Notes under the pieces: model-generated
What the model was told of the DNA's origin: nothing
Databases searched by the model: none
What the model saw: the letters and a program-made list of their open reading frames with translations, nothing else
Part shown: positions 20,428-21,853 of the stretch, in pieces
Position numbering within the stretch: the first letter of the stretch is position 1
Layout of the letters: each line of letters opens with the position of its first letter
Made by a program: the position numbers and the translations under genes
Source of the DNA: Longimicrobiaceae bacterium
GTDB lineage: Bacteria; Gemmatimonadota; Gemmatimonadetes; Longimicrobiales; Longimicrobiaceae
Reading direction: 5' to 3'
NCBI GenBank assembly: GCA_036375715.1
Contig: DASVBS010000081.1
Coordinates: forward strand, 62,001-126,000
Length of the DNA: 64,000 nucleotides

Positions 20428-20909
20428 TCACCTTACCCGGATCGTCGCCTCGATCCGGATGGGAACGCTACACGAGGCAGCGATGAAGCACCGCTCGTGT
20501 GCAGCCTCGTCAGTGCCTGCGCCCGTCGCACCGATTGGGCGTCCGCGACTGTGACGACAGGTCGTAGGACGATTGCACTGAAGCGCCCACCACCGCCAGC
20601 CTCGAGCATCAGGGTTGCGCGGGCATTGTCCTGGTAGGCGGTCACCCGTACTCCCTCCCGCGCGCAGAGCGACAGGTAGGAAAGCATGTGACAGGAGGCC
20701 ACCGCTGCGACGAAGAGGTCCTCGGGGTCGTGTCGCTCGGGCCGACCGCGGAAAGCGGGGTTGGCGCTGCCGGCGATCGTCGGTTTCCCTTCGATCTCCA
20801 CAACATATTCCCGGTCATAGGCGAAGTAGCTCTCCGTGCCGCTGCCGCGGTTGCCCGTCCAGGTGATGCGTGCGGCATACGAGTGGCCAGTGACGGCGGT
20901 GGTGGTCAC
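20428..20909 (-). pseudogene. OsmC-family peroxidase gene, frameshifted near its 3' end
   Basis: The first ~135 codons read as a normal OsmC protein: 'SYAARITWTGNRGSGT', 'RPERHDPEDLFVAAVASCHMLSYLSLCA' segment with the first catalytic Cys in ASCHM. OsmC proteins reduce organic hydroperoxides with two cysteines. As written the frame then runs into 'LTRLHTSGASSLPRVAF' and stops at 20433, lacking the second Cys. The missing end is present in another frame: 'TDEAAHERCFIAASCSVPI', then 'RIEATIRVR', stop at 20428-20430. A one-base loss near 20513-20520 explains this. It is either a real inactivation or an assembly error. Divergent from an ArsR-type regulator. Confidence 0.85.
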
Positions 20910-21145: not shown

Positions 21146-21853
21146 ATGATCAGTGATGCTTCCATCGCGCCTGTAGCCGCGTTGATCGCGGATCCGACGC
21201 GTGCGGTAATTCTCTGCGCCCTCGCGGACGGGCGGGTGAGACCCGCCGGAGAGCTCGCCCGGGAGGCGGGGGTGAGCGCGTCGACTGCGAGCGAGCACCT
21301 GAGCCGGTTGCTCGAGGGAGGGTTGGTCGAGGTCGAGCGGCATGGACGACATCGCTACTACCGCGTGAGCGGAGAGCGGGTGGTCACGGCGCTCGAGGCC
21401 ATCGGTGCGCTGGCACGCCCGGGACCGGCCCTGCCCCATCGACGCGCCGCCGTCGCGCGAGACCTGAGGCACGCCCGCGCCTGCTATGACCACCTCGCTG
21501 GCACTCTCGGCGTCGCCCTCGCCCGCGCCCTCGTGGAGCGGGGGGTGCTTCATAGCCACAACGGGCATTATGAGCTTCCCGAGGCGGGTTCCAGGTTCCT
21601 CGCCGACGGGCTGGGAGTGGACGTGGCCCGAGCGCGTGCCTCCAGGCGGCAGTTCGCCCGTGCCTGCCTCGACTGGACCGAGCGCTCGCATCACATTGCG
21701 GGGGCGCTCGGCGCGGAGCTCCTGCGCCGGCTGCTCGAGCTGGGGTGGCTCGAGCGCTCGGCCGGAAGTCGGATTCTGCGGGTGACGCACGCCGGAAGGC
21801 GCGGGTTCCAGGAGTCCTTCGAGATCGACGCTCTGGCTCTGCGTTACCAGTGA
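21146..21853 (+). CDS. ArsR-family winged-helix transcriptional regulator
   Basis: 235 aa. N-terminal winged helix-turn-helix: 'ALIADPTRAVILCALADG', 'ELAREAGVSASTASEHLSRL' (recognition helix) and the wing 'LVEVERHGRHRYYRV'. The C-terminal ~130 residues form a second domain with scattered His/Cys ('RHARACYDHLAGTLG', 'ERGVLHSHNGHYEL'); this longer ArsR form is common in actinobacterial and related genomes. Ligand unknown. The start has GGGAGGGG upstream. Divergent from the osmC locus, which it may control. Confidence 0.88.
   Translation: MISDASIAPVAALIADPTRAVILCALADGRVRPAGELAREAGVSASTASEHLSRLLEGGLVEVERHGRHRYYRVSGERVVTALEAIGALARPGPALPHRRAAVARDLRHARACYDHLAGTLGVALARALVERGVLHSHNGHYELPEAGSRFLADGLGVDVARARASRRQFARACLDWTERSHHIAGALGAELLRRLLELGWLERSAGSRILRVTHAGRRGFQESFEIDALALRYQ

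Follow-up and report, generated by a model that had tools for sequence, protein, structure and literature searches.

The osmC-like gene in the window, the whole 64,000-nucleotide stretch of DNA that was analysed, is shifted by a net one base near position 20510, and its second conserved cysteine is displaced into the neighbouring reading frame. We estimate a probability of roughly 0.94 that this is a lone, non-programmed one-base indel in a normal two-cysteine osmC, caused either by an assembly or sequencing error or by a very recent inactivating mutation, with the odds between these two origins about even. The frameshift is truly present in the sequence as assembled and is biologically ordinary.

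Table: Features of the osmC-like locus (window coordinates)
Feature	Coordinates	Strand	Remarks and basis
osmC-like open reading frame as encoded, 158 residues	20433..20909	(-)	GTG start; 25 out-of-frame C-terminal residues; partial PF02566 match
Conserved body, 133 codons, with first conserved cysteine at 20693-20691	20511..20909	(-)	alignment, tblastn, codon usage
Likeliest site of the frame change, net one base	20505..20513	(-)	overlap of tblastn pieces at 20508-20493; codon-usage switch at 20511-20512
Displaced intact C-terminal tail with second conserved cysteine at 20490-20488, TGA stop	20428..20505	(-)	neighbouring frame, codon usage
Divergent ArsR-family regulator, open frame	21146..21853	(+)	NF033788, 65.5 bits

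The start codon of the gene is preceded, on inspection of the sequence, by a Shine-Dalgarno-like GGAGG. The encoded protein scores 35.9 bits with the Pfam family OsmC (PF02566), above the cut-off of 27.5, although the match is partial and covers just positions 6-77 of the 100 in the profile. It resembles the OsmC/Ohr thiol peroxidases, specifically the subgroup with the motifs PED...CHM and AHxxCFIA, in that its body matches and the region of the first cysteine is conserved; it differs from the family in that the encoded frame ends the PF02566 match at position 77 and lacks the second cysteine. The first cysteine (TGT, residue 73) forms part of a CH motif in a long helix and is invariant in an alignment of 24 sequences. 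The second (TGC) is found only in the neighbouring frame. By sequence, the nearest relative of solved structure is 2d7v (VCA0330), which matches positions 7-153 of a profile built from five intact relatives, including both cysteine regions, with an E-value of 3.1e-25. Matches of the window protein and of the relatives L007 and L009 to the NCBIfam models SACOL1771, OsmC and, for L007, Ohr were below cut-off or absent, and the gene is therefore not filed under those named subfamilies.

In an alignment with the five relatives, the encoded frame tracks them through the residues AQAL, at about position 20511, whereas the last 25 encoded residues do not align except for a chance RLH after a gap. The C-terminal end typical of the family, AAHERCFIAASCSVPIRIEATIRVR, is open one frame over, and reaches just five bases beyond the encoded stop. 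When the intact relative L007 is the query, tblastn recovers the gene in two frames, at 20909-20493 with 57% identity and at 20508-20413 with 67%. Of the 23 aligned residues of the displaced tail, 17 are identical to L007, a similarity that is far beyond chance. A codon-usage model trained on the source genome places the optimal switch at 20511-20512, the score being 19.87, compared with 10.75 when the encoded frame is kept throughout, although this optimum is shallow (a switch at 20537 scores 19.66). The 25 codons of the tail score 0.67 in their own frame and −1.76 and −5.8 in the other two. The placements by homology and by codon usage agree to within some 20 bases.

The initial annotation had described a frameshift in osmC, the loss of the second cysteine from the encoded frame and an intact lost end, open in the neighbouring frame down to 20428. 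All of this is borne out, the first by the two-frame tblastn match together with the codon-usage switch and the second by the location of the cysteine beyond the shift. Its placement at 20513-20520 needs a small correction: the shift is nearby, but the best site lies at about 20511, a few bases 3' of that range.

In comparison with each of seven relatives, conservation of the displaced tail equals or exceeds that of the body; identities in tail and body are, for example, 17/23 and 76/131 with L007, 17/21 and 65/115 with L008, and 12/16 and 71/124 with L014. Since third-position GC is also similar (0.76 in the tail, 0.77 in the body), no decay is visible in the tail, with the qualification that 25 codons around a conserved cysteine offer little power. 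The same observation, with the same qualification, speaks against an old pseudogene.

As assembled, the gene would give the cell a protein that has the first, peroxidatic-type cysteine but lacks the second and the C-terminal segment of the family. In the AlphaFold model of this protein, built on an alignment of 24 sequences, block means of pLDDT are 80-97 up to residue 140, and residue 73 lies in the helix 62-84. The first few altered residues are predicted to lengthen a helix, and the last 17 of the 25 have pLDDT below 50 and appear disordered. In the Ohr/OsmC enzymes covered by PMC8945050, mutagenesis showed that both cysteines are critical for catalysis; the encoded form is therefore very probably inactive as a peroxidase.

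Related loci were collected in several ways. Used as the sole query in a scan, the window protein detected no relatives. Among 61 genomes from the family and the order, 8 had a match to the body, the source genome counted, and 9 of 154 genomes of the order, again including the source, matched at an E-value of 1e-30. With A2, which aligns five intact relatives, as query, at least 576 loci were obtained, the best 80 of which were kept. In plasmid DNA, a search turned up two partial matches, which added little. The final set comprised 89 loci, no two of them identical, after removal of duplicates (L094-L098), of loci from the source genome (L001-L006 and L101) and of L013, a weak match judged to be spurious. 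As 80 of the 89 are the best 80 of at least 576, the selection favours intact genes.

In all 89 loci a single tblastn piece covers both cysteine regions, with both cysteines in that frame, and in 88 there is no stop between them. Nine other loci have a stop within the aligned piece, but always far past the second cysteine, at query positions 156-163. Motif patterns, in looser and stricter form, recognised 74 of the 89 loci and 69 of 93 with duplicates included; across these sequences, the cysteine motif varies while the frame is constant. The one locus with a stop between its cysteines is L099:1495-1974, in genome G111 from a different genus within the order; the stop is an in-frame TAG, and frame and tail are kept. 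This is apparently a second, different lesion in this osmC subfamily. A locus from the same genus as L099, L100, is open.

The initial annotation had offered three origins for the shift, namely a very recent event, a sequencing error or a programmed frameshift, and had suggested looking for the same shift in relatives. The first two of these fit the data. Under the third, a programmed −1 frameshift would yield a short and a full-length form. Such a −1 move at the junction would indeed give a protein of the usual length for the family, both frames are open across a long overlap, and the sequence after the junction folds into a hairpin with z-scores of −2.15 (91 nt) and −2.73 (41 nt) relative to shuffled sequence. 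Yet no X XXY YYZ heptamer occurs in 20609-20440, even with relaxed (2-of-3) re-pairing, and five Shine-Dalgarno-like patterns matched only at 20658 over 20909-20401, with none near the junction. The hairpin is modest, and the intact relative L008 folds alike (z −2.47); z-scores for the other relatives, in stretches that are only roughly matched, were −1.50 for L007 and near zero for L009 and L010. Finally, the shift recurs in none of the 89 loci (a set weighted towards intact genes by the retention of the best 80 of at least 576), all of which are unshifted between the cysteines. Programmed frameshifting is unsupported, and we rejected it for the missing recoding signal and the unshifted relatives, considering it highly improbable. 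We regard as just as improbable the more specific proposal of a real, used shift, by which the cell would make mainly a one-cysteine OsmC, with a portion of two-cysteine enzyme arising from inefficient −1 slippage ahead of the hairpin. Only marginally less remote is the idea that the truncated form is itself under selection as a one-cysteine OsmC that serves another role. Its body is predicted to fold with confidence, but the model shows the new tail as largely disordered, and this tail does not align with the five relatives, and on these grounds this candidate was rejected as well.

The hairpin at 20465-20505, just past the junction (z −2.73 over 41 nt), may be a by-product of codon constraints and, speculatively, might also be prone to deletion or sequencing trouble. 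Runs of at least four equal bases occur over 20909-20401 only at 20760 and 20727, with none at the site of the shift.

To gauge the frameshift background of the assembly, a draft in 87 contigs with an estimated contamination of 3.48%, we surveyed 464 kb (the window and 20 further stretches) by two-frame tblastn against open reading frames taken from two relatives (1.6 Mb) and ran the reciprocal comparisons as controls. Footprints were counted at E-values below 1e-10 and with half of the query covered. Apart from osmC, no two-frame gene was found in 53 homology-covered footprints (61,168 bp), and the reciprocal controls gave 0 of 57 (G007) and 0 of 52 (G022); stricter limits left just 15, 17 and 15 footprints. 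By the rule of three, this bounds the rate at about one frameshift per 20 kb, a bound that is weaker near gene ends. The sensitivity of the survey is limited: of three osmC relatives added as queries, only L007 exposed the known shift, which means that short displaced ends can escape it. This result speaks against an assembly grossly riddled with frameshifts, though it leaves room for a rare error.

We also tried ab initio codon-usage scans for frameshifts as a measure of assembly quality, but dropped them, as overlapping neighbour genes give the same picture there as a frameshift does; the two-frame tblastn survey took their place. The osmC gene itself, with its displaced end just five bases longer than the encoded frame, was not among the genes they listed. 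They returned 29 pairs without a nearby start codon; among five checked with Pfam, none represented one family split over both pieces, a result of little information in that four of these pairs lacked Pfam matches in both pieces.

The reading we prefer is that of a normal two-cysteine OsmC-family gene with one isolated indel of a single base, some 80 bases short of its end. Whether this happened in the data or in the organism is close to a coin toss. If it is an assembly or sequencing error, for which we see even chances, the living organism has an intact gene. The state of the draft, in 87 contigs, the tail without visible decay and the open frame of the neighbouring ArsR-family regulator are consistent with an error, and so is the report in PMC11017572 that assembly errors account for many putative pseudogenes in bacteria. 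In the large survey of PMC3711429, homology-validated singleton frameshifts are likewise expected to be sequencing errors. Against an error stand two absences, that of a second frameshift in the 53 homology-covered footprints and that of any homopolymer of at least four bases where the shift occurs. The latter points bring us to a genuine recent loss-of-function mutation, fixed or polymorphic and perhaps tolerated via the remaining OsmC-family proteins, to which we give slightly less than an even chance. It would be in keeping with the apparently low frameshift background, with the presence of four other open OsmC-family genes and with the position near the 3' end, where shifts are likelier to be real indels according to a speculation in PMC3711429. 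The absence of visible decay in the tail argues against it, as does the lack of close similarity between this gene and the four others; moreover, the 61 searched genomes include no second one from the source genus. The case resembles the singleton frameshifted genes and assembly-derived pseudogenes of PMC3711429 and PMC11017572, being a lone, homology-confirmed one-base shift absent from the relatives examined, and no difference is evident from what those reports say of such genes. The shift carries little biological weight, and a single draft genome cannot separate an assembly slip from a fresh mutation; the gene is best annotated as osmC with a frameshift, its status unconfirmed, rather than as a one-cysteine variant or as recoded.

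The four further OsmC-family genes in the source genome are open over their match, and each has, by eye, two cysteines placed as in the family. None matched the osmC body at an E-value of 0.001, which is why we do not regard them as close copies.

A homologue of the ArsR-family regulator was detectable at 7 of the 89 loci, whose flanks were short, and in five of them (L007, L008, L009, L015, L019) it is divergent and adjacent to osmC; the arrangement is thus common to some relatives with an intact osmC. At 235 residues, the regulator is much longer than its matched HTH part, which extends to residue 91, and no match was listed for its C-terminal half in profile searches. An open reading frame for a YNCE-like β-propeller (PF21783, 19311-20306) follows osmC immediately downstream and shares its strand.
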